This document shows positions 20,799 to 32,047 of a stretch of 64,000 nucleotides of DNA, piece by piece; position 1 is the stretch's first letter, and each line of letters starts with the position of its first letter. The notes under the pieces were generated by a model, which was not told where the DNA came from, ran no database searches, and was given only the letters and a program-made list of their open reading frames with translations. The translations under genes were made by a program, and so were the position numbers. Origin of the DNA: Salipiger abyssi (GTDB lineage Bacteria > Pseudomonadota > Alphaproteobacteria > Rhodobacterales > Rhodobacteraceae); the NCBI RefSeq assembly GCF_001975705.1, contig NZ_CP015093.1:3914501-3978500 (forward strand), given 5' to 3'.

Positions 20799-20865
20799 GG
20801 CGGGCGTTTCCGGGGCGCGCGCTTGCTGCGCCCTACTTCTTCGAAGCAGGTCTTACCAGACACGA

Positions 20866-20897
20866 AAAAAGGGCGGGCCCGAAAGCCCGCCCTTTTT
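20866..20897. terminator. Bidirectional intrinsic terminator
   Basis: AAAAA plus GGGCGGGC (20866-20878), loop CCGAAA, GCCCGCCC plus TTTTT (20885-20897). The A and T runs make it work on both strands, closing rhlE from the left and the ten-gene operon from the right (stop at 20916). Confidence 0.85.
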
Positions 20898-20915: not shown

Positions 20916-21998
20916 TCAGTCGCGCAGCACAGCCATGCTGCTCTCTTCCCAGCCGATCCAGACTGGCGCCTCGCCCACCGACTGGCCGGTATCCGCATCC
21001 ACATAGGCCTTGAGCGTCGCGCCCTGCGCCTCTTCCACCAGCAGATCCAGCGCCATGCGGCTGCCGAGGAAGGTCTTGCCGACCACCCTGCCCTGCACCG
21101 CGTTCGCCGTCGCCGGGCGCTCGGCGTGAAAGCCCAGCCGCTCCAGACGCACCGAGGCGGTGATCGGCGTGCCCGCCTGCGGCACGCCACCCGGCGCATG
21201 GCCGCGCAGGGTCTGGCCGAACCAGTCCATCACCACCGCGCCGCCCTCGGTGCCGCGCAGCTCGCCGGTGAGCAGGTTCGTCTCGCCGATGAACTCTGCC
21301 ACAAAGCGGCTCGCGGGATGGAAATAGAGCTCTTCGGGCGTGCCGTCCTGTTCCACCTTACCCTTGTTCATCACCACGATGCGGTCGGACATGGTCAGCG
21401 CCTCTTCCTGATCGTGGGTCACGAAGAAGAAGGTCTTGCTGGTGCGGCGCTGGATGCTTTTCAGTTCCTGCTGCACCTGCCCGCGCAGTTTCGCATCGAG
21501 CGCGCCCAGCGGCTCGTCGAGCAGCAGGAGCGCCGGATCGGGCGCCAGCGCCCGGGCCAGCGCCACACGCTGCCGCTGCCCGCCGGAAAGCTGCGCCGGG
21601 TAGCGGTCGCCATAGGCGTCGAGCTCGAGAAAGGACATGATCTCGTCCTGCCGGCGGCGAATTTCGGGTTTGCTCATCCCCTTCAGCTCCAGCCCGAAGG
21701 AGATGTTCTGCCGCACGGTCATATGCGGAAACAGCGCGTAATCCTGAAACACCATGTTCACCTGGCGTTTCTCCGGCGGCAGACGGGTCACATCGGTGCC
21801 GTCGAGGATGACGCTGCCCGAGCTCGGCTGCTCGAACCCGCCGAGAATGCGCAGCGTGGTGGACTTGCCGCAGCCCGACGGGCCGAGGAAGGTGACGAAT
21901 TCGCCGCGGGCGATATCGAGGGTGAGATCGTCCAGCGCCGTGGTGTCGCCGAAATGCTTGGAGACGTTCTGGATGCGGACGAGCGCGTCTGAGGTCAT
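20916..21998 (-). CDS. ABC importer ATPase, spermidine/putrescine (PotA) type
   Basis: 360 residues. Walker A GPSGCGKST near 39-47, Q-loop VFQDYALFPHMTV, signature LSGGQRQRVALARAL, Walker B LLLLDEPLGALD, H-loop FVTHDQEEALTMSD, and a C-terminal TOBE region (from about 240). Energises import of the ligand caught by the binding protein encoded three genes upstream. The subfamily takes up polyamines and also opines and other amino compounds, so the substrate is open. Last gene of the ten-gene operon, four bases after the permease gene. Confidence 0.9.
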   Translation of the reverse strand: MTSDALVRIQNVSKHFGDTTALDDLTLDIARGEFVTFLGPSGCGKSTTLRILGGFEQPSSGSVILDGTDVTRLPPEKRQVNMVFQDYALFPHMTVRQNISFGLELKGMSKPEIRRRQDEIMSFLELDAYGDRYPAQLSGGQRQRVALARALAPDPALLLLDEPLGALDAKLRGQVQQELKSIQRRTSKTFFFVTHDQEEALTMSDRIVVMNKGKVEQDGTPEELYFHPASRFVAEFIGETNLLTGELRGTEGGAVVMDWFGQTLRGHAPGGVPQAGTPITASVRLERLGFHAERPATANAVQGRVVGKTFLGSRMALDLLVEEAQGATLKAYVDADTGQSVGEAPVWIGWEESSMAVLRD

Positions 21999-22001
21999 GG
22001 C

Positions 22002-22787
22002 TCAGGACTCCTTGTTCATGCGGCGGGTAAAGCGCTCGGCCCAAACGCCGACAACGGCGGTCAGGACCAGCGCCGCCGTGGCGATGGCGTTGATCTCGGG
22101 CGACATGCCCGATTTCAGCTTGGCGAAGATCAGCACCGGCAGGGTCGGCTCGTAGCCGCCGAGGAAGAAGGAGCGGACGAAATCGTCGAAGCTGAGCAGA
22201 AGGCAGAAGATGCTCGCCCCCATGATCGCGGGGATCAGATAGGGCAGCGAGATGCGCAGGAAGGCGATGAGCGGGTCGGCGCCCAGATCGCGCGCCGCCT
22301 CGATCTGGCTTTTCGGCAGGGTCGAGAGCCGCGCCATGACCACAAGCACAACAAAGGGCACGTTATGCACCGCATGGGCCCAGACGATGGCGCCCATGCC
22401 GGGCTCGATGCCGAGATAGCGGGCATAGATGCGGAAGGCGATGGCCGAGATGATCCCCGGCACCAGCGCCGGCAGCACGGTCATGCCGAAGATCGCCGCG
22501 CGGCCCCAGAACTTGCGCCCTTCCAGCAGCACCGCGATCCAGGTGCCGACAAAGACCGAAATCAGCGTCGACAGCACCGCGATCCCGACCGAATACCCAA
22601 AGGCGGAAATCACCTCGGCATTCTCGAAAAGCCCCATATACCACTCCAGCGTATAGGAGCGGATCGGGAAGCCGATGAACTTGCTGTCCTTGAAGCCCAT
22701 CAGCACCATGAGCACCAGCGGCACAAAGACATAGGCGACAAAGCCCCAGTAGACGCAGGAGAGCAGAATGCGGTTGCCCCGGGTCAT
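22002..22787 (-). CDS. ABC importer permease, PotC type
   Basis: 261 residues from MTRGNRILLSCVYWG, six membrane segments. The cytoplasmic EAA loop reads IEAARDLGADPLIAFLRISLPYLIP, the contact point for the ATPase. The longer frame from 22892 adds a non-family N-terminus and runs into the preceding gene; the ATG at 22787 overlaps that gene's stop (ATGA). Confidence 0.9.
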   Translation of the reverse strand: MTRGNRILLSCVYWGFVAYVFVPLVLMVLMGFKDSKFIGFPIRSYTLEWYMGLFENAEVISAFGYSVGIAVLSTLISVFVGTWIAVLLEGRKFWGRAAIFGMTVLPALVPGIISAIAFRIYARYLGIEPGMGAIVWAHAVHNVPFVVLVVMARLSTLPKSQIEAARDLGADPLIAFLRISLPYLIPAIMGASIFCLLLSFDDFVRSFFLGGYEPTLPVLIFAKLKSGMSPEINAIATAALVLTAVVGVWAERFTRRMNKES

Positions 22788-23770
22788 TTCGCATCTCCCT
22801 TGCGCAGCGCGGTCATGAGTTTCTGGAACAGCGTGGTGATGACCAGCGCCGCGAGGAACATGATCACCGCAAAGGCAGCCCCCGTGGGCCATTCATCGCC
22901 CGCGACATGGAAGAACCCGGCGATGGTCTCGGCGAACACCGTGGTCGAGGGCCCGCCCAGCAGCACCGGCGTGGCATAGAACCCCGTCGAGATCAGGAAG
23001 ACCAGCGTGCAGCCCGAGGAGATCCCTTCGAGGGTCAGCGGCAGGGTCACCCGGCGGAACCGCGTCCAGGCGCCCGCGCCAAGATCGGCGGCGGCCTCGT
23101 TCAGCGATTTCGGCAGCTTCTCCAGCGCCGAATAGAGCGGCAGCAGCATGTAGAGCGCGGTCAGGTAGACGATGCCGACGCCCATGGAAAAGCTCGTGTA
23201 CATGAAGGGGATGGGCCGGTCGATCAGCCCCAGCCATTTCAGCACGAGGTTCACCGCGCCGGTATTGCCCAGCAGGATCATGATCGCATAGGTGCGCACG
23301 ATCTCGCCCACCCAGAACGGGATGAGCAGCATCAAAAGCAGCAGCATGCGGTTCTTGGGGCTGACATGGCGCGCCAGGAAATAGGCCACCGGATAGGTCA
23401 GGATCAGCGTGCAGAGCGTGAAGACGAAGGCAAAGCTCAGCGTCCGGAAGAACGGCATCCAGAAGATGCTGTCGCCCAGAAAGCGCAGGTAGTTGTCGAA
23501 GGTGAAATGCTGCTCGGTCCCCGGGGCGACCGGATAGGCATCGGTCAGCGACACGCGGAGCATTTGCAGCATCGGCCCCAGATGCTGGGTCAGCACCCAA
23601 AGCACCGGAAAGGCCGCGAGAATCAGGAACTGGCGGCGCGGCGTGGCAGTGGCGATCTGCACCAGCGCCCGGTACGGCGCCCAGGAAGCCAGCCGCCCCC
23701 AGAAGGTGCGGTCGCCTCCGGCAGCCGGGACGGCACCGCGTTCTTCGCGCGCGGATGCGTCATAGGTCAT
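22784..23770 (-). CDS. ABC importer permease, PotB type
   Basis: 328 residues with a 60-residue cytoplasmic N-terminus, then six membrane segments. EAA loop LNEAAADLGAGAWTRFRRVTLPLTLEG. Pairs with the PotC-type subunit to form the membrane channel. It follows the binding-protein gene after a 76-base gap that could hold a processing site but shows no clear terminator. Confidence 0.9.
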   Translation of the reverse strand: MTYDASAREERGAVPAAGGDRTFWGRLASWAPYRALVQIATATPRRQFLILAAFPVLWVLTQHLGPMLQMLRVSLTDAYPVAPGTEQHFTFDNYLRFLGDSIFWMPFFRTLSFAFVFTLCTLILTYPVAYFLARHVSPKNRMLLLLMLLIPFWVGEIVRTYAIMILLGNTGAVNLVLKWLGLIDRPIPFMYTSFSMGVGIVYLTALYMLLPLYSALEKLPKSLNEAAADLGAGAWTRFRRVTLPLTLEGISSGCTLVFLISTGFYATPVLLGGPSTTVFAETIAGFFHVAGDEWPTGAAFAVIMFLAALVITTLFQKLMTALRKGDAK

Positions 23771-23846
23771 GATATGCCCTTTCGAAAGGCTTGGCGGAGA
23801 CCCCGCCCGCGACTGACGGCACGGACGGGGCTGCGGTTCAGTACGC

Positions 23847-24953
23847 TTACGCGGCCTTGATGGCCTCCACAGCCGGGTCGACGAAGCCGTATTTCATCTC
23901 GTTCGCCTCGGCGCGGAAGAACTGGAGGTTGGCCAGCTGCTCGTCCGGGAAGGAGGTGGATTTCTTCTCCAGATCGGTCAGATATTCCGACGCGCCCTTG
24001 TAGGTCGAGATGAAGCCCGACGCCTTGGTCATCGCCGCGCCGATCTCGGGCGAGGCGAGAATGGCATTCAGGAAGGTGTAGGCGTTGTCCGGGTTCGGGC
24101 AGTTCTTGGCGATGTTGTAAGTGTAGACAAAGCCGTAGGAGCCCTCTTTCGGGATCGACATGCCGAGCGGGAAACCGTCATTGATCAGCGCCGCCGCCGG
24201 GCCGTTCCAGCTATGGCCCAGCACGATGTCCTGGTTGACGAACATCTGCTGCACCTCGGCGCCGCTGTCGTAATATTTACGCACCAGCGGCTTTTTCTCG
24301 ATGAGATACTGCTTGGCCTCTTCGACGATGGCCTCGGCCTTTTCCGGGTCGCCCAGATACTCGACCATATTGCCGTCATAGCCCATCTTGAGCATGATGA
24401 TCGACATCATGTCCTGGATGATATAGGCGGTCTGGCCCTTGTATTTCTCGCTGAAGAGCGTGTCCCAGGTATCGGCCTCTTCGGGGCTGACATAGTCGGT
24501 GTTGTAGGCCAGCACCTCCATGCCCGAGAGGATCGGCGCGCCCCATTTCTCGCCATTGATGGTCGACCAGTCGGATTCGCTGAAGGTCGGGTTGATATTG
24601 CCCCAGTTGCTCAGCCGGTCGGTGTCGAGCGGCGCCAGCAGGTCGCTGTCGATGAATTGCAGAAAGCGGTGGCCGGCCACGGTCATGATGTCCACCGAGG
24701 GGTTCGGCGCCTCGGCGGCGAGCAGGTTGAACTGCTTGCCCTGGTCATCGACCAGCCGGACATTGACCTTGATGCCGGTCTCGGACTCGAACTGCTCCTT
24801 GAAGGCCTCGGGGACGAAATCGTTATAGGTCCAGATATTGACCTCGCCGCCCTGCGCATGGGCGCGGCGCAGATAGGCGGGGCTGGCCAGCGCCGCGCCG
24901 GTCATGGCGGCGGTGGTCAGCAGTTTGCGGCGGTTGAGAATGAGTTTGCTCAT
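23847..24953 (-). CDS. Periplasmic substrate-binding protein, PotD/PotF family
   Basis: 368 residues from MSKLILNRRKLLTTAAMTGAALASPA, a twin-arginine-like signal peptide (NRRKLLT) with cleavage near AHA-QGG. An upstream ATG adds 20 polar residues in front of the signal and is rejected. The mature part is a type II binding protein: VNIWTYNDFVPEAFKEQFESETGIKV, then ILSGMEVLAYNTDYV and GHSWNGPAAALI. The WTY-N-ND opening is that of polyamine-type binding proteins, but ligand residues cannot be assigned by eye. Preceded by the opine-type dehydrogenase gene (56-base gap). Confidence 0.88.
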   Translation of the reverse strand: MSKLILNRRKLLTTAAMTGAALASPAYLRRAHAQGGEVNIWTYNDFVPEAFKEQFESETGIKVNVRLVDDQGKQFNLLAAEAPNPSVDIMTVAGHRFLQFIDSDLLAPLDTDRLSNWGNINPTFSESDWSTINGEKWGAPILSGMEVLAYNTDYVSPEEADTWDTLFSEKYKGQTAYIIQDMMSIIMLKMGYDGNMVEYLGDPEKAEAIVEEAKQYLIEKKPLVRKYYDSGAEVQQMFVNQDIVLGHSWNGPAAALINDGFPLGMSIPKEGSYGFVYTYNIAKNCPNPDNAYTFLNAILASPEIGAAMTKASGFISTYKGASEYLTDLEKKSTSFPDEQLANLQFFRAEANEMKYGFVDPAVEAIKAA

Positions 24954-25009
24954 GGTGCGCGTCTCCGTGTTGGATCGTATTGTGTTGTCTGTTTGCCGTA
25001 TCTTCGAGG

Positions 25010-26110
25010 TCACGACGCCGGTTCCGGCGTCTTCCGCAGCAGGCCGGTACGGGCGGCCTGGCGCAGATCGTCGAGGCTGTAGCGGTCCAGCTCCAGCGCG
25101 TTCAGTAGCTCGTTTTCATGCGCGAAATCGCGGGCATACATGGCGGAGAAGATCTTGATCCCCGCCTCGTGCAGCTCTGCGGGATGGCCAGTGAGCCGTC
25201 CCAGAATGGCGGTGAGTTGCAGCCCGTAGGGCACATCCTCGGTGACATAGCGGCTGTCGGCGGTAGCCGGCCCGGTGCCGCCATTGCCCTGCGCATGCAT
25301 CTGCTGGTTCATCTCCGAGATCGTGGAGATCGGCACATGAAAGCTCTGGCTGAAATGCTCGAAGATCGTTTTGGTCTTGAGCCCCAGCGCCTCGGCGATG
25401 GCCAGCCGCTCCAGATCCAGCGCCTCCAGCAGCGCGCCCACCTTGGGGGTGACGTTCTGGCCCTGACTCCAGGTCTCGCCGCGCTCCATGCGGGTGATAT
25501 TGCCAAGCGCGATGCCCAGATGGTTCTGCGGGTTGAGATTGGACAACGAGATCGCCAGCAGCCCGTCGCGCGGCACAAAGACATCGCCGAAGAGCCTGGT
25601 GCAGACCGCGCGGGCGCAATCGCTGCGGGTCTCGGGCACGGTGCAGAGATCGACCTTCTTGCGCACGGTATTGACCTGCACGCTGGCGCCCTCGCCCCGC
25701 CGTCCGGTCACAACCGTGGTGCCCCAGGCGGTCACGGCGGCCTCCACGCCGCGCGCGGCAAGGGCCTGCATCAGATAGACCGCGCCGAGCGAGGCGTGCG
25801 AGCTGATGAGGATGTGCTGGCCGTCGCGGATATGCGGCGCCAGCGCATCGAACACCGCCTTGTGGCCATAGCCCGGCAGCGCGATCAGGATCGCGTCGTT
25901 TTCCTCGGCCAGCTGCTGCGCCGAGGCCGCGACGCGCGAGTCGAACTGCGTCTCGATGGCGCCGGTGGCGGTCAGCAGCCCGTCTTGCAACGCGGCGGTC
26001 GAGGCGCCGGAGGGCGACCAGAGCATCGGGTCGTGGCCGTTCTGGTGCAGCAGCGCCGCCGTGCCGAACGCGATGGAGCCCGCGCCCGCGATGCCGACCT
26101 TCGCGCTCAT
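25010..26110 (-). CDS. Opine (octopine/nopaline)-type dehydrogenase
   Basis: 366 residues. N-terminal Rossmann domain with GIAGAGSIAFGTA (residues 6-18) and the C-terminal octopine-dehydrogenase domain (NLNPQNHLGIALGNITRMERGE near 200, then helices to the end). Enzymes of this family join or split an amino acid and a 2-oxo acid through a secondary amine, with NAD(P)H. The direction here is unknown; coupling to an importer favours breakdown of an N-carboxyalkyl amino acid. Stop of this gene lies 56 bases before the binding-protein start; its start overlaps the AhpD-like gene (ATGA). Confidence 0.85.
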   Translation of the reverse strand: MSAKVGIAGAGSIAFGTAALLHQNGHDPMLWSPSGASTAALQDGLLTATGAIETQFDSRVAASAQQLAEENDAILIALPGYGHKAVFDALAPHIRDGQHILISSHASLGAVYLMQALAARGVEAAVTAWGTTVVTGRRGEGASVQVNTVRKKVDLCTVPETRSDCARAVCTRLFGDVFVPRDGLLAISLSNLNPQNHLGIALGNITRMERGETWSQGQNVTPKVGALLEALDLERLAIAEALGLKTKTIFEHFSQSFHVPISTISEMNQQMHAQGNGGTGPATADSRYVTEDVPYGLQLTAILGRLTGHPAELHEAGIKIFSAMYARDFAHENELLNALELDRYSLDDLRQAARTGLLRKTPEPAS

Positions 26111-26694
26111 GCCGGCACCTCCTGCCGTACCGGATCGCCCAGCACATGCATCAGCCGGTTGGCCCAGCCGAACAGCGCCGCCGAGAGGATCAGGTCGAGG
26201 ATTTCCTCGTCGCTGAGCCCCGCTTCGCGCAGCTTGGCCATATCCTCGGGCGCGGCATCGACCGGGCTTTCCGAGAGCTTGCGCGCAAAGTCGAAAATCG
26301 CGCGATTGCGGGGGCTTAGATCGGCTTTCTCACCCTTTGCAAAAAGTTCGTCGGTGACCGCCGTGTCCTTCTCAAGCTTGGCGTGGCGGTCCGCATGCAC
26401 GGCGGCGCAATAGATGCAGCGGTTGACCATGCTGGCGCCGATGGCGCCGAGCTCGCGCTCGGCCCGGCTCATGCCGCCGGGATCGTACATGATCGCGTTG
26501 AAGAGCGGCGAGCGCACCTTGAGGCTTTCGACGTCATGCGCCAGCGTCAGCACATAGTCCGAGACCTTGGTGTTCGAGGGCGTCACCTGAAGCGCATCGA
26601 GCTGTTCCTCGGTCGCCTCTTGCAGATCCACCGGCGTGACGCGTGGCTGCCAGTGCGGAACTTTGCGGGTGAATTTGTGCACGATCCGGCTCAT
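26107..26694 (-). CDS. AhpD/CMD-fold peroxidase-related protein with CxxC
   Basis: 195 residues, all-helical CMD fold. The AhpD-type redox motif is intact: ASMVNRCIYCAAVHADRHAKL (Cys-x2-Cys with the downstream His, near 97-105). It resembles, from memory, the alkylhydroperoxidase-domain family first noted as Avi_7169 in Agrobacterium vitis, which is likewise paired with a second CMD protein. Probably a thiol peroxidase or disulfide reductase handling a peroxide made by the neighbouring flavoenzyme; that is inference. ATGA overlaps on both sides. Confidence 0.8.
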   Translation of the reverse strand: MSRIVHKFTRKVPHWQPRVTPVDLQEATEEQLDALQVTPSNTKVSDYVLTLAHDVESLKVRSPLFNAIMYDPGGMSRAERELGAIGASMVNRCIYCAAVHADRHAKLEKDTAVTDELFAKGEKADLSPRNRAIFDFARKLSESPVDAAPEDMAKLREAGLSDEEILDLILSAALFGWANRLMHVLGDPVRQEVPA

Positions 26695-27170
26695 GCCGCT
26701 TCCCCTTTCATCAGGCGCAGCCCGGCGACGACGCGGAGCTGATAGGCCATGAAGGCGCAGAGCTCACAGAGCCGGACGATATCCGCATCCGCAATTCCTT
26801 CGGCCTGAAGCGAAGAAATGTCCTCGGCGGCGATGTCGCGGGTCCGGTTGGCGGCCTTGTCGAAAAACGCCACGACCGTGCCAAAGCCCTCCGCCACGCC
26901 ATCGCGCGCCGGATCAGCCAGCGCCACCATGGCGCCGGCCTTGTCGAGATAGCGCTCGGCCAGCGCCGGCTCGCCGCCCGCCGTGGCGAGCCGTGCCGCA
27001 AGCGCTGCACGCAGATCGTGCGGGAAGGCGCCGGGATCGCGCGGGCTCAGCACCGCGTCCTCGGCGGCCTGGGTCGCCTCGATGATCTTGGTGCGGGTCT
27101 CGGCGGCGGCCGCCACCGGCCCCTGCGCAATGCCCGCCGCCTTCAGTGTCGTGCTGTCGAAAATGCTCAT
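26691..27170 (-). CDS. CMD-domain protein paired with the AhpD-like protein
   Basis: 159 residues from MSIFDSTTLKAAGIAQ. Helical, with the CMD-like pattern SLQAEGIADADIVRLCELCAFMAYQLRVVAGLRLM at the C-terminus. A CxxC (CELC) is present but in the helix where relatives have SFFAWQNR-type sequence, not at the AhpD active-site position. It looks like the partner family noted as Avi_7170 in A. vitis. The start overlaps the stop of the FAD oxidoreductase gene (ATGA); a longer frame to 27392 has no family support. Confidence 0.72.
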   Translation of the reverse strand: MSIFDSTTLKAAGIAQGPVAAAAETRTKIIEATQAAEDAVLSPRDPGAFPHDLRAALAARLATAGGEPALAERYLDKAGAMVALADPARDGVAEGFGTVVAFFDKAANRTRDIAAEDISSLQAEGIADADIVRLCELCAFMAYQLRVVAGLRLMKGEAA

Positions 27171-28630
27171 GCCACCTGTCCTTCCGCCGGCTGCGGCAGC
27201 GGGGTCGGTTCCCACTCGCTGCCGTCGAGCTCGGGTGTTTCGTAATTCAGCATGTCCTGCCAGTGCGTCTCCAGATCCTCGGCATAGAGCGTCGCCGCCA
27301 TCGCCCGCGACAGCCAGGCCGCGCCCTCGGACACGCCCGGAATATCGCCCGAGACCTTGCCGAGACTCGCAGAGGCGCCGTAGTTGAAGCAATAAACCTT
27401 GCTCAGCCAGGGCACCTCGCCCGGCACCTTCTCGCGGAAGGTGAAGTCGGGGTTGAGATAGGGAAAACGGCCCAGATCGGCGTTCTGCTCGTCCTCCGGC
27501 GGGGTGTAGACATCCTGCCAGAGCAGGATCTTGCCCGCCACGTCGCCGAACTCGGTGCGCGCCATCGGGTCGATGACGAAACCGGTGCCGAGGATGACGA
27601 AATCCGCCACGTAGGACGTGCCGTCTGCGAAATGCACCTCGACCTCGTCACCGCGCTGCTCGATCTTTGTCGTCGCCTTGCCGAAATGGAAATGCGCGTT
27701 CTTGTGGCGGCTCACCCGCAGGGTGGAGCCATGTGGCGGCGGCGTCTGGGTGGCAAAGCTGTACTGCATGAAGCGCCAGCGCCATTCGTCGGGAAGATCG
27801 GCGAAGCCGGCGGTGAAGCCGAAGCTGCCGATGCCCATCATCTTGTTGATCGTCGGCATCTCCTTGCGGCGGATCACATGGCGCACCTCGGCGGCGCCGT
27901 GCTCCAGCGCCTCCGCCGCGTTGTCCACCGCCGAGGCGCCCACCCCGATCACCGCCACGCGCTTGCCTTTGAGCGCGTCGAAATCGATCTCGTCGGCGCT
28001 ATGCGCCCAGAAGCGGCGCGGCAGATCCTTGATGAAGCCGGGAATGTTCGGCCCGCCAGTGCCGTCGCGCCCGGTGGCAAAGACCAGCTTGCGGCAGAGG
28101 ATCGTGCCCTCCTCGGCGCCCGACACGGTGAGCCGCAGCAGATCGCCCTCGGGCTCGACCTTGTCGACCGAGACGCCGTTTTCCACCGGTACGTTCAGCG
28201 CCTTGCGATACCAGCGCAGATACTCCATCCACATCGGGCGCGGAATCTTGTCCATCTTCTCCCAGGCTTCCGCGCCGTGCTGGGCGCGATACCAGGCCTG
28301 AAAGGTCAGCGGACCGAGGCCAAAGGCCGGGCCGGTCAGGGTTTTCGGCGAGCGCAGCGTCTCCATCCGGGCATAGTTGAGCCACGGCCCTTCCAGCCCC
28401 TCGGGGCTGCGGTCGAGCACGCGGATATTGCGCACGCCGCCGGTTTGCAGGCCGAGCCAGGCCACCATGCCGCACATGCCGCCGCCGATGATCACCACAT
28501 CCGTCACGCCCTCCCGCGCCGGCACCCAGTCCTTGCCGGGATAGCAGAGGAAATCGAGGTCTTCGTGGAGGCGGGCCTCGAGGGCCTCAAGGCCCTGCGC
28601 GTCGATCGGAGAAGTGTCATTCGTGTGCAT
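27167..28630 (-). CDS. FAD/NAD(P)-dependent oxidoreductase (monooxygenase-like)
   Basis: 487 residues. FAD-binding DVVIIGGGMCGMVAWLG (near 44-60), a second dinucleotide motif KRVAVIGVGASAVDNAAEA (near 223) for NAD(P)H, and the ATG motif DFVILGTGFVID (near 345). The layout resembles class B flavin monooxygenases and lysine/ornithine N-hydroxylases. Substrate unknown; it may hydroxylate an amine or amino acid. It precedes the two CMD proteins, with ATGA coupling, and follows the MFS gene after 51 bases. Confidence 0.8.
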   Translation of the reverse strand: MHTNDTSPIDAQGLEALEARLHEDLDFLCYPGKDWVPAREGVTDVVIIGGGMCGMVAWLGLQTGGVRNIRVLDRSPEGLEGPWLNYARMETLRSPKTLTGPAFGLGPLTFQAWYRAQHGAEAWEKMDKIPRPMWMEYLRWYRKALNVPVENGVSVDKVEPEGDLLRLTVSGAEEGTILCRKLVFATGRDGTGGPNIPGFIKDLPRRFWAHSADEIDFDALKGKRVAVIGVGASAVDNAAEALEHGAAEVRHVIRRKEMPTINKMMGIGSFGFTAGFADLPDEWRWRFMQYSFATQTPPPHGSTLRVSRHKNAHFHFGKATTKIEQRGDEVEVHFADGTSYVADFVILGTGFVIDPMARTEFGDVAGKILLWQDVYTPPEDEQNADLGRFPYLNPDFTFREKVPGEVPWLSKVYCFNYGASASLGKVSGDIPGVSEGAAWLSRAMAATLYAEDLETHWQDMLNYETPELDGSEWEPTPLPQPAEGQVA

Positions 28631-28681
28631 ACGAATCGTCCTACAGGAAAAGCGTGTTGCGGTTCAGCATCAATAAGGGCG

Positions 28682-30019
28682 TCAGGCAGTGGTTTTTGCC
28701 CAATCCGGATGCAGCTCGTCTATGTGATAGGCATGGGCGTGGCGATGGCGGGGCCCATGTCCGGGATGGTTGCGCAGATGCGGGTGATCCGCGGGCAGCT
28801 CGGGGTGGTCATGCACGCGCTCCAGCGGATCATGCGCCGGCCAGACCCGGGTGGCGATGAGCGCCACCAGCGCCGCGAGCAGCGAGAGCGCCAGCATCGC
28901 CTGTTCCAGCGTCAGCAGGCTGGCGAGCCAGCCGGCCAGCGGATAGGCGACCAGCCAGCCGCCATGGCTGAGCGAGAACTGCGCCGCGAAGACCGCCGCC
29001 CGGTCCGCGCGCGCCGCCGAGCGGGTGATCACCAGCCCGCCGGGCGTCAGCACCAGCGACGAGGCCAGCCCGAAGGCCGCCCAGATGACCAGCAGCCCGG
29101 CCAGCGGCGGCTGCGGGATGAGCGCAAAGACCGCGCCGGAGACCGCGAAGGCAAAGATGCCGGCGAGCATCGCCTGCCGCTCGCCGGTACGGCGCACCAG
29201 GCGCGGCACGAAAACCGCCCCCAGCGCCGCGCCGAAACCATAGCCTGCCATCAGCACCGGATAGAGCCCCTCGGCATCGCTGAGCCTTGCGCCGGCATAG
29301 ACCACCGAGTTGACCAGCACCCAGGCCATGGCCAGCGACAGCGCAAGGTTCAGCAGGAAGAGGCCACGCAGCCGGGGTGTGCGACTGTAGATCTTCATGC
29401 CCCGCAATGCGCGGGTCAGGAACGGCCCCTTGCGCTCGGCATGGCCCTTGGGCGGAAAGCGCGTGGCGAGCAGGAAGGCGACCGAGCCCAGGAACGAAAG
29501 TGCTGCACAGAGGAACAGCGCCTCGGGCGCGACGAGCTTCAGCACCGCTGCCGCGATCACCGGGCTCAGCACCGATTCCAGCGTATAGGCGATGCGCGAC
29601 CAGGCCAGCGCCTTGGTATAGGTCTCTTCCTCGGGCAGCACATCGGGGATCACCGACTGAAAGAGCGGCGTGAAACCCGAGGCCAGCACGAAGAACAGAA
29701 AGGCCAGAGTCGCGATCTCCCAGGTCTGCGAGACAAAGACCATCGGGATCAGCAGCAGCATGCGGCCGAAATCCAGCGCCACCATGGCGCGTTTGCGCGG
29801 CAGCGCGCCGAGCAGGCTTTCGGCAAAGGGCGCGAGCCCGACATAGGCCACCATCTTCAGCGCCAGCAGCAGCCCGAGAATGCGCCCGCCCGCCGCCGGC
29901 CCGCCGATCTCGTAGGCCATCAGCGACAGCGCCACGGTCAGCAGCCCGACCGCGAGCAGCGAACAGACCTGAGCGGCGAACAGGGTGCGGAAGGCGCGAT
30001 TGGCGAGCGGGCTGGTCAC
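28682..30019 (-). CDS. MFS transporter with a histidine-rich C-terminal tail
   Basis: 445 residues with 10-12 membrane segments (from MTSPLANRAFRTLFAAQVCSLLAVGLLT to about 405); the region LARALR..RRTGERQAM lies between helices. The last 50 residues hold 12 His (for example HPGHGPRHRHAHAYH), unusual for this family and possibly a metal-binding tail. Likely an exporter or second transporter of the pathway. Its start overlaps the stop of the PLP-enzyme gene by four bases. Confidence 0.85.
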   Translation of the reverse strand: MTSPLANRAFRTLFAAQVCSLLAVGLLTVALSLMAYEIGGPAAGGRILGLLLALKMVAYVGLAPFAESLLGALPRKRAMVALDFGRMLLLIPMVFVSQTWEIATLAFLFFVLASGFTPLFQSVIPDVLPEEETYTKALAWSRIAYTLESVLSPVIAAAVLKLVAPEALFLCAALSFLGSVAFLLATRFPPKGHAERKGPFLTRALRGMKIYSRTPRLRGLFLLNLALSLAMAWVLVNSVVYAGARLSDAEGLYPVLMAGYGFGAALGAVFVPRLVRRTGERQAMLAGIFAFAVSGAVFALIPQPPLAGLLVIWAAFGLASSLVLTPGGLVITRSAARADRAAVFAAQFSLSHGGWLVAYPLAGWLASLLTLEQAMLALSLLAALVALIATRVWPAHDPLERVHDHPELPADHPHLRNHPGHGPRHRHAHAYHIDELHPDWAKTTA

Positions 30020-31476
30020 GATGCGAGGATCTCCTTTGCGGTGCCGACGGGCGCGAACCGCGCGGTCTGCGCGTCGACCCGGTACTGCGACATATAGTCT
30101 GACGCCTCCCGGGCCAGATTGTCCACCGCAGCGATGATCATATCCGCCTTGTCGTCACTCATCAGTGCGGAAAAATTGAGCCGTACCCAGCCCGGCTTGG
30201 CCACTTCCTCGCCATGGGCGATGGCGTCGAACGTGTCGTCCGACGAGGCCTCGTCGAGCCCCAGAAGCCGGTGGGCATAGGATCCGGCGCAGGCGCAGCC
30301 GCCGCGCGCCTGGATGCCGTACACGTCGCTCAGCAGCCGGGTGAAGAACTGATGATGCACCAGCCCGCCCCGGGCGTCGCGCACCCGGAAGGAAAAGATC
30401 GGCAGCGCCTCCGGCCCTTGCAGCCCGAGCAACTCCAGATGCGGATTGTGGCGCCAGACCGCCTCGGCCCGGGCGCGCAGCGCGGCGTGGCGGGCGTCGA
30501 GCCAGTCCCGCCCCAGCGCCTCCTTGATGAGCATCACCAGCGCCACGCGGATATCGCCGACGACATTGGGCGTGCCGCCTTCCTCGCGGTCGGCGAGGCT
30601 GCCGGAATAGGCATGCCCCCAGGGCGAGACAAAGCTCACCGTGCCGCCGCCGGGCAGCGTCGGCGTGCTCCGCCGGGCGATGGCGTCGCGCAGGATCATC
30701 ACCCCCGAGGCGCCGGGACCGCCGGGAAACTTGTGCGGCGAGAACACGATGGCGTCTTTCTCGGCGTCGCTGCCCTGCTTCATGTCCATGGCGATGTAGG
30801 GCGCGCCGCCGCCGTAATCCCAGACCGAGACGGCGCCGTGACGCTTCAGCAGCCGGGTCACCGCATCCACATCGGTGAGGATGCCGGTCACGTTCGACGC
30901 CGCCGAAAAGCTGCCGACGATCAGATCGGCGCCCTCTGCCGCGACCAGCGCCTGCTCCAGCGCCGCCAGATCCGGTCCGCCCTGCGCATCCTCGGCAATC
31001 TCGATCACCTCGGCGCCGCTCTCGCGCCATGGCAGCAGGTTGGAGTGATGCTCATACGGCCCGATCAGCGCCACGGCGCGACCGCCGCGCGCGGCGATGC
31101 CGGCGATGTCCAGCAGCCCGACGATACGGTTGATCCCGGCGGTGGTGCCCGAACCGGCAAAGACCACGCTCGTGCCGGCACCGGCGCCGGTCATGCGGGC
31201 GATCTCGGCCCGCGCCGCCTCGCGCAGACGGGTGCAGAAGGCGCCGCAATAAGAGGCCTGGGTATGGCTGTTGGCATAATACGGCAGCACCCGGTCGCGG
31301 ATGAAATCCTCCACCTGCGCAAGCGCCCGGCCCGAGGCGACGTAATCGGCATAGACCAGCGGCTTGGGGCCGAACGGCCCGTCGATCCGAGCCGCCTCGC
31401 CGATCAGCCCGGCGCGCAGCCAGTCCACCAGATCGGGGCGTTTGAGCGAATGCGCGAAGTCGTCGAGGGGGGCCAT
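30016..31476 (-). CDS. Class V aminotransferase-fold PLP enzyme (cysteine desulfurase-like)
   Basis: 486 residues from MAPLDDFAHSLKRP (GGAG seven bases upstream); the frame extends 21 residues further without support. PLP-lysine motif IVFSPHKFPGGPGASGVMI near 262-280, the substrate loop GSGTTAGINRIVG, and a Cys-rich loop IQARGGCACAGSYAHRLLG near 410, which is where cysteine desulfurases carry the catalytic Cys. The long form with GGC-x-CAG is a distinct, poorly known branch. It heads the operon, 109 bases from the divergent Lrp gene. Confidence 0.82.
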   Translation of the reverse strand: MAPLDDFAHSLKRPDLVDWLRAGLIGEAARIDGPFGPKPLVYADYVASGRALAQVEDFIRDRVLPYYANSHTQASYCGAFCTRLREAARAEIARMTGAGAGTSVVFAGSGTTAGINRIVGLLDIAGIAARGGRAVALIGPYEHHSNLLPWRESGAEVIEIAEDAQGGPDLAALEQALVAAEGADLIVGSFSAASNVTGILTDVDAVTRLLKRHGAVSVWDYGGGAPYIAMDMKQGSDAEKDAIVFSPHKFPGGPGASGVMILRDAIARRSTPTLPGGGTVSFVSPWGHAYSGSLADREEGGTPNVVGDIRVALVMLIKEALGRDWLDARHAALRARAEAVWRHNPHLELLGLQGPEALPIFSFRVRDARGGLVHHQFFTRLLSDVYGIQARGGCACAGSYAHRLLGLDEASSDDTFDAIAHGEEVAKPGWVRLNFSALMSDDKADMIIAAVDNLAREASDYMSQYRVDAQTARFAPVGTAKEILAS

Positions 31477-31528
31477 GGCCGCTCCGTTGGTCAGGTATCT
31501 TCGCGAAAAGTATGACGCGAGATACGAA

Positions 31529-31546
31529 AAAAACTTCACAGTTTTT
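31529..31546. promoter_or_regulatory. Candidate Lrp-type operator in the divergent promoter
   Basis: AAAAACT-TCAC-AGTTTTT, a perfect 7-bp inverted repeat with a 4-base spacer, in the 109-base AT-rich gap between the PLP-enzyme start (31476) and the Lrp-type gene start (31586). A tandem TCTATCAT repeat follows at 31559-31574. Both are plausible binding sites for the adjacent regulator. Confidence 0.5.
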
Positions 31547-31585
31547 CATCTTTATGAATCTATCATTCTATCATATGAACGATGA

Positions 31586-32047
31586 ATGACCATCAAACTC
31601 GATAAAATTGACCACCGCATTCTTGCCGAACTCCAGCGCGACTCATCGCAATCGCAGCGCGCGCTGAGCGAGCGTGTGGGCCTGTCGCAAAACGCCTGCT
31701 GGCGGCGGCTCAAGGCGCTGGACGCGGCCGGCGTGATCCGCAACCACACGGTGGTGCTCGACCGCAATCAGCTCGGCGCCGGGCTGGTGGTCTTTGTGAT
31801 GATCAAGACGCGGCACCACTCCGCCGACTGGCTCAAGCGCTTCCGCAAGCATGTCTCCTCGATCCCCGACGTGATCGACTTCTTCCGCATCGGCGGCGAA
31901 TACGATTACCTGCTCAAGATCATCACCCGCGACATGATGAGCTATGACGAGGTCTACAAGACGCTCATCGAAGAGATCGAGCTGGAGACCGTGACCTCTT
32001 ATTTCGCCATGGAAGCCATCGAGGAACAGCGCCCGATCCCGATGTGA
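31586..32047 (+). CDS. Lrp/AsnC-family transcriptional regulator
   Basis: 153 residues. N-terminal winged helix-turn-helix (LDKIDHRILAELQRDSSQSQRALSERVGLSQNACWRRLKALDAAGVI) and C-terminal RAM ligand-binding domain (residues 65-150, with GEYDYLLKIITRDM). Such regulators sense amino acids or their derivatives and often control a divergent operon. Its gene is back to back with the ten-gene operon, so the effector is probably that pathway's substrate. The ribosome site is weak (GAACGATGA). Confidence 0.9.
   Translation: MTIKLDKIDHRILAELQRDSSQSQRALSERVGLSQNACWRRLKALDAAGVIRNHTVVLDRNQLGAGLVVFVMIKTRHHSADWLKRFRKHVSSIPDVIDFFRIGGEYDYLLKIITRDMMSYDEVYKTLIEEIELETVTSYFAMEAIEEQRPIPM

Follow-up and report, generated by a model that had tools for sequence, protein, structure and literature searches.

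The window analysed here, a stretch of 64,000 nucleotides of the Salipiger abyssi genome (5.26 Mb; contig NZ_CP015093.1, positions 3,914,501 to 3,978,500), carries ten minus-strand genes and a divergent gene for an Lrp/AsnC-family regulator, which a first-pass annotation had taken for one operon with its regulator. All eleven genes were found where they had been placed, in the order PLP-MFS-FAD-CMD1-CMD2-ODH-SBP-PER1-PER2-ATP with Lrp divergent from PLP (Table 1), and the set is a real unit. These names stand for a class V pyridoxal phosphate enzyme (PLP), a major facilitator superfamily transporter (MFS), a flavoenzyme (FAD), two proteins of the carboxymuconolactone decarboxylase type (CMD1, CMD2), an opine-type dehydrogenase (ODH) and the solute-binding protein, permeases and ATPase of a PotD-type ABC importer. 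ATGA overlaps occur at four of the nine joins (FAD/CMD1, CMD1/CMD2, CMD2/ODH, PER1/PER2), so that the annotated ATGA "at most joins" holds only if the GTGA overlap of PLP/MFS is counted with them; the other four joins are gaps of 51, 56, 76 and 3 bases. For PLP, ATG 31476 is the most likely start, rather than the GTG of a 507-aa open reading frame (ORF); it gives a protein of 486 aa, a length shared by 73 of the 120 homologues listed. SBP most likely begins at ATG 24953; starts were also corrected relative to the earlier ORFs for PER2 and CMD1. The hairpin behind the last gene was seen by direct reading only and was not listed by a simple pattern scan. Between the window and the S. abyssi locus L051, the eleven proteins share 94-99% identity.

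Table 1. Features of the operon and its surroundings, with positions in the window and the evidence for each assignment.
Feature	Position	Strand	Evidence
Lrp/AsnC-family regulator (Lrp), divergent	31586..32047	+	NCBIfam Lrp E 1e-26, below equivalog cut-off
Palindrome TTCTATCATATGAACGAT, probable Lrp operator	31566..31583		between divergent Lrp and PLP
PLP, class V SufS-like enzyme	30016..31476	-	Aminotran_5 E 3e-38
MFS transporter, His-rich C-terminal tail	28682..30019	-	MFS_1 E 9e-27; TIGR00900 E 1e-56, below cut-off
FAD, class-B-like flavin monooxygenase/hydroxylase	27170..28630 (frame with stop 27167-28630)	-	Pyr_redox_3, Foldseek, tree
CMD1, CMD-like without AhpD motif	26691..27170	-	TIGR04029 E 1e-16, below cut-off
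CMD2, AhpD-like	26107..26694	-	PF02627 E 9e-13; TIGR01926 above cut-off
ODH, opine-type dehydrogenase	25010..26110	-	PF02317 E 9e-35; 1BG6 E 6e-29
SBP, PotD-type solute-binding protein	23847..24953	-	SBP_bac_8 E 3e-31; best structures PotD-like
PER1, ABC permease, PotB/PotH type	22784..23770	-	domain and NCBIfam searches
PER2, ABC permease	22002..22787	-	BPD_transp_1; ATGA overlap with PER1
ATP, ABC ATPase, PotA/PhnT type	20916..21998	-	domain and NCBIfam searches
Terminator-like GC hairpin and T run	20865..20897	-	after last gene (ATP), read by eye

The conservation of the set was followed in 80 loci found by scanning genome contigs for FAD, which are the closest 80 of 147 confirmed loci and not a random sample, and all eleven proteins were placed in them by tblastn. 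The order FAD-CMD1-CMD2-ODH-SBP-PER1-PER2-ATP was found in nearly all 80. Downstream genes were counted in the 71 loci whose downstream sequence reaches 7.3 kb or more (nine shorter ones were left out); all seven partners of FAD were kept in 67 and SBP in 69 of these. Because 67 of 71 loci hold every partner, the association of the genes is beyond chance, and the expectation that they would be neighbours in other genomes was borne out. An independent sample of 248 genomes of the family gave the same picture: close orthologues of FAD, ODH and CMD2 (at least 66%, 60% and 72% identity, respectively) were confined to the same 12 genomes and were neighbours in every one of them; two of the 12 ODH matches (G366, G377) are interrupted by one stop. 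The upstream genes are less constant. They were counted in the 72 loci that extend 4 kb or more on that side (eight short ones were left out): Lrp was found in 49, PLP in 54 and MFS in 46; all three were present in 40, one or two in 17 and none in 15. The operon core is tightly conserved in many Roseobacteraceae/Paracoccaceae, Stappiaceae and Phyllobacteriaceae. The whole operon also occurred in an assembly of the actinomycete Enemella evansiae (Actinomycetota; L085) in a Paracoccus-like form that groups with the Paracoccus locus L070 in the FAD tree, and this copy reflects either assembly contamination or recent transfer.

Two loci depart from this pattern in their importer. At L081 (Jiella), Lrp-PLP-FAD-CMD1-CMD2 is followed by an ABC importer with an SBP_bac_3 protein (PAAT), and at L130 the same five genes are followed by DctP/DctM TRAP genes; within the fetched loci neither holds ODH or a PotD-type importer. 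Since the importer and ODH are missing together, ODH appears to travel with the PotD-type importer, and the FAD-CMD part is separable from both. In a tree of FAD proteins (46 of 110 rows, three of them long, midpoint root, the window clade represented by L051) ODH was restricted to one clade, and both the sister L130 and the next branch, L143, have CMD genes without ODH. The sampled tree fits a single addition of ODH together with the PotD-type importer.

The annotation of ODH as an opine-type dehydrogenase stands. The protein contains the Octopine_DH domain (PF02317, 120.3 bits against a cut-off of 30), and its His197 and Asp292, both invariant in 14 sequences, align with His202 and Asp297 of 1BG6, which we take to be the catalytic pair of that enzyme. 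This supports membership in the opine dehydrogenase family with its catalytic His/Asp pair, from which an activity on N-carboxyalkyl amino acids is predicted. SBP is 66-93% identical to 19 relatives, and the earlier assignment as polyamine-type importer holds for the ABC architecture, whereas the pocket appears unlike that of PotD. PotD binds amines through acidic and aromatic residues (Asp257, Trp255 and others). In pairwise alignment Asp257 and Trp255 correspond to Tyr277 and Phe275 of SBP, both invariant, and Tyr85, Tyr37, Trp34 and Glu171 correspond to His, Phe, Tyr and Asp, Asp168 falls in a gap and Trp229 is kept. The exchange of the Asp257/Trp255 pair makes a plain polyamine an improbable ligand, and with pocket positions changed in this alignment, polyamine import was dropped as the plain reading. 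The predicted structure of SBP was weak (pLDDT 58) and was not used.

The FAD sequence alone gave no match in the PDB at 1e-5, and it matched DAO only below the cut-off of that family. A 16-row profile matched flavin monooxygenases and thioredoxin-reductase-like folds, and a Foldseek search with the FAD model returned DesB, YpdA, SidA and PvdA as best matches, N-hydroxylases among them; profile and fold comparison together group FAD with flavin monooxygenases, N-hydroxylases (DesB, SidA, PvdA, KtzI) and YpdA-like reductases. Three relatives 39-45% identical to the window FAD (L147, L150, L192) lie in uricolysis loci: at L150 the gene is flanked by those for OHCU decarboxylase (UraD) and for hydroxyisourate hydrolase (UraH), and allantoinase PuuE is close by, at L147 UraD, UraH and PuuE all occur about 6 kb from FAD, and at L192 UraH adjoins FAD with PuuE further away. 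In G271 24 bases separate the end of an OHCU decarboxylase gene from the FAD gene that follows. Neither PuuD (PF06181) nor uricase (PF01014) was found in the four genomes concerned (G175, G271, G277, G035), in which an HpxO-type hydroxylase was not searched for. Because these FAD proteins belong to uricolysis loci of genomes without PuuD and uricase, they are probably urate hydroxylases, and presumably of the HpyO type. PMC4562309 describes HpyO as an FAD- and NAD(P)H-dependent urate hydroxylase that occurs with UraH/UraD in Xanthomonas, and states that HpxO and HpyO yield water, not H2O2. The three relatives fall in a supported group of the tree (7 rows, 96/88) separate from the window clade. 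The window genome has PuuD and OHCU decarboxylase outside the operon and no urate genes within it; since that genome is already so equipped, its FAD probably acts on something other than urate. Hydroxylase is the most likely activity of FAD, rather than a peroxide-making oxidase.

Of the paired CMD proteins, CMD2 has the Glu, CxxC and His set of AhpD alkylhydroperoxidase (E81/C93/C96/H100), its CxxC being present in all 11 aligned rows, and CMD1 aligns without that set and gave no Pfam match at 1e-3. The likeness to the Agrobacterium pair Avi_7170/Avi_7169 that had been pointed out is genuine as a resemblance, but the scores stay under both family cut-offs (TIGR04029, 62.2 against 100.75; TIGR04030, 155.7 against 233.15). 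By analogy with UraH/UraD beside the urate-type relatives, the pair may handle a labile hydroxylated product.

Further FAD genes, 34-53% identical to that of the window, showed how the surroundings change. FAD stands near PLP, PotBC-like permeases and hydantoinase A/B at L133/L134; near a PotD-type ABC importer and an M19 dipeptidase at L136/L138 (in either pair one member was assigned by Pfam and the other by similarity); near PLP, M81/MlrC, M19, TRAP genes and the CMD pair at L139; and near the CMD pair, PLP, Lrp and luciferase-like monooxygenases at L142. The importer (Dpp, PAAT, TRAP or PotD type) and the neighbouring enzyme vary while FAD is constant, often with the CMD pair. CMD2 was found in six of the 20 loci L131-L150 (L131, L137, L139, L140, L142, L143), and the CMD pair of the L132 cluster lies just outside that region and was seen in L184. 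No CMD gene was labelled in L144-L150 and L190-L199 by the codon-score gene caller, which left FAD itself uncalled in L148, L149 and L197 and missed some other genes, for instance Cds1 in L184 and L186, placed by tblastn. The AllA label of L196/L198 comes from reading only, the L196 protein having no NCBIfam match at 1e-10. The window genome itself holds a second FAD-CMD cluster (G000:C5, about 1966575-1981700; L131, L170) with an M24 peptidase, an MlrC-like protein, the CMD pair, an importer that reads as Dpp-like and, at a distance of 10 kb, a second PLP.

Two FAD/CMD clusters also contain a gene for an L-cysteine desulfhydrase of the Cds1 type, scoring 582 and 584 bits against a cut-off of 600. 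At L137 it is divergent from an Lrp gene whose product shares 60% identity with that of the window, and in G492 its neighbours are CMD2, CMD1 and a S/N-oxide reductase of the BisC family (697 bits against 1018). At L184 a single run of genes holds a BisC-family S/N-oxide reductase, the CMD pair and Cds1, with a Dpp-like importer and FAD close by. PLP, for its part, aligned to solved cysteine desulfurases with the SxHK lysine (in all 75 locus copies that reach this part) and with a Cys at the place of the catalytic Cys; the desulfurase Cys motif was found in 120/120 homologues and 75/75 such copies. The score with TIGR01979 (SufS) was 105.5 against a cut-off of 475.1. That two unrelated PLP enzymes of cysteine breakdown occur near the same module suggests, without proving it, that a cysteine-type amino acid occurs in the pathway. 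The proposed sulfur-containing substrate thereby gains some support, and its selenium variant was dropped, as no supporting gene was seen, although no dedicated search was made.

PLP and Lrp are also found on their own. Lrp is divergent to PLP in 49 of the 80 FAD loci and in 15 of 16 PLP regions without FAD (six of the 16 were not anchored by the gene caller). A palindrome with the consensus TTCKATCATATGATMGAA is conserved between the two genes: its strict core was found in 47 of 65 intergenic regions, namely 37 of 49 with the FAD operon, nine of 15 without it and the window, and position weight matrix scanning gave weaker matches in several more. The site in the window is the best-scoring one of its genome; of two further weak matches one lies within an ORF that reads as cas3-like (L202, G000:C5 near 2030247; an HD/helicase ORF beside an insertion-sequence-like region). 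In 25 loci without the full Lrp-PLP arrangement, five of which do have an upstream PLP gene, no operator was found within 500 bases upstream of FAD, and for this reason we assign the palindrome to Lrp-PLP. Lrp-PLP forms a widespread divergon of its own, equipped with a probable palindromic operator, and is separable from the rest of the system annotated earlier. Lrp is predicted to bind the palindrome as a putative operator, and the window operon would most likely come under its control by read-through; a promoter-like match in the palindrome region was no better than chance (one found, 1.6 expected). The MFS tail is conserved as His-rich, with a median of nine His in the last 45 residues of 48 copies, and may bind metal.

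Taken together, we propose a catabolic operon in which the PotD-type importer would take up an opine-type (N-carboxyalkyl) amino acid or a close analogue, ODH would cleave it with NAD(P)+, the amino compound released next to a 2-oxo acid would be hydroxylated by FAD as an NAD(P)H-dependent flavin enzyme, and the CMD pair would process the labile hydroxylated product, in the place taken by UraH/UraD next to the urate-type relatives. Where Lrp-PLP(-MFS) has been fused upstream, as in many members, Lrp would control the promoter at the palindrome, PLP would desulfurate a cysteine-type amino acid and MFS would export a product. The data show the gene set and its conservation, the catalytic residues, the exchange of modules and the conservation of the palindrome; the sequence of steps, the class of substrate, the parts played by CMD, PLP and MFS and the binding of Lrp to the palindrome are inferred. 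We give this reading, in which the substrate is assigned as a class only, a probability of about 45%. Several observations weigh against it. The cleavage direction is our choice for ODH, opine dehydrogenases being reversible enzymes. The FAD model is of moderate confidence (pLDDT 73), with TM-scores by query length of 0.33-0.59 among the 50 Foldseek matches listed. The uricolysis analogy is loosened by the HpxO-type hydroxylases outside the search and by OHCU decarboxylase being found in three of the four uricolytic genomes and not in G035. L114 and L120 keep FAD, ODH and the ABC importer without a CMD pair near FAD, the ODH-importer genes of L120 lying upstream of FAD. Finally, the sulfur step is not general, because 15 of 72 core loci lack PLP, Lrp and MFS, and of 13 Cds1 matches in the 248 genomes only two (G520, G492) are in FAD/CMD clusters; the other 11 genomes gave no FAD match, the regions having been viewed in five.

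A wider reading, which we regard as possible but doubtful, makes FAD and the CMD pair an undescribed catabolic module resembling uricolysis: a labile hydroxylated nitrogen (perhaps nitrogen-sulfur) product of the flavin hydroxylase would pass to the two CMD proteins as hydrolase or decarboxylase in the manner of UraH/UraD, importers and unmasking enzymes would be swapped, and the route would often end in cysteine desulfuration. If true, the unmasking enzymes would be ODH, M19/M24 peptidases and M81, with HyuAB for some FAD proteins that have no CMD nearby, so that one core would be fed by opine-, peptide- or hydantoin-type conjugates and desulfurated by the SufS-like PLP or Cds1.

Similarly unlikely is the reading that ODH reduces an imine or keto group of an intermediate in the FAD chemistry, the imported compound being some other cation or amino acid. 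N-terminal models of ApbA and Gly3P-dehydrogenase also match ODH, and a PotD-type importer by itself leaves the ligand unfixed; the His197/Asp292 pair and the relation to 1BG6 speak for an opine enzyme, and L081 and L130 keep FAD with a different importer and no ODH. We are about equally sceptical that the locus is just two adjacent modules, a cysteine-handling Lrp-PLP(-MFS) divergon and an uptake operon of other purpose, which would be compatible with the proposed catabolic route for the core genes. Lrp-PLP without FAD is indeed common (PLP, E 1e-80 or better, in 69 and FAD, 1e-60, in 24 of the 248 genomes), and the 25 operator-free FAD upstream regions fit a division; against it, PLP recurs near FAD in the distinct clusters L133, L134, L139 and L142 and in the second cluster of the window genome, and Cds1-like genes in two more.

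The first-pass annotation had itself proposed that the flavoenzyme oxidises the N-substituted amino acid after its import and so makes peroxide, which the CMD pair removes, and that ODH cleaves the C-N bond; this order now seems improbable. The AhpD residues kept in CMD2 and the 4-base overlap coupling FAD to CMD1 would suit it, but the motif is missing from CMD1, FAD and CMD occur without ODH at L081 and L130 and elsewhere with unrelated importers, so that the FAD step need not be the oxidation of the N-substituted compound, and the relatives of FAD appear as hydroxylases by gene context, the known ones making water. Detoxification of peroxide by the CMD pair was dropped, being needless if FAD is a hydroxylase. 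Synthesis and export of a metallophore-like opine by MFS with ABC re-uptake, to which the His-rich tail and the ability of opine dehydrogenases to act as synthases would lend themselves, is very improbable and was dropped, as MFS is not general (46/72 loci against 69/71 for SBP) and domain searches found no nicotianamine-synthase-like domain among the operon proteins.

Under the proposed catabolic reading, the conserved core suggests that an opine-like nutrient, possibly one with sulfur, has gone unrecognised, and the modular comparison makes the operon testable through the ligand of the conserved SBP and the role of the CMD pair after a flavin hydroxylase. The claim that no pathway with this exact set is known agrees with our search, in which no published description was found, subscription journals lying largely outside the literature covered; the available portions of PMC9870897, PMC10041152, PMC4562309 and PMC4575208 do not describe the set. 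Among the entries of PMC9870897 is an "opine/polyamine" ABC set of Ruegeria, SPO2699-2702. The parts are known families, and their combination, like the FAD-CMD module with swappable importers, appears undescribed.

Among known systems, the closest to ODH is the N-(1-D-carboxylethyl)-L-norvaline dehydrogenase 1BG6 (Octopine_DH), the one solved relative found at E 1e-3, which shares the family and the His/Asp pair; ODH differs in being embedded in an import operon. OdhABC/Nox/Oox, a multi-subunit flavin-containing opine dehydrogenase with FAD, FMN and 2Fe-2S according to PMC4575208, joins opine breakdown to a flavoenzyme, as is proposed for the operon; no iron-sulfur domain was found among the ten operon proteins at E 1e-3. 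Paired CMD and AhpD-like genes as in the window make up the TIGR04029/TIGR04030 pair, and the CMD1 of L142 passes TIGR04029. PLP shares its fold family, the PLP lysine and the aligned Cys with SufS/CsdA, yet it is far under their family cut-offs and is linked to Lrp. PotABCD and the window importer have the ABC architecture in common, with several PotD pocket positions changed in SBP by pairwise alignment. Finally, the HpyO system with UraH/UraD (PMC4562309) may resemble the operon in its FAD/NAD(P)H hydroxylase, through the 39-45% identical relatives in uricolysis loci, and differs in that the window has the CMD pair beside FAD instead of UraH/UraD, with PuuD elsewhere.

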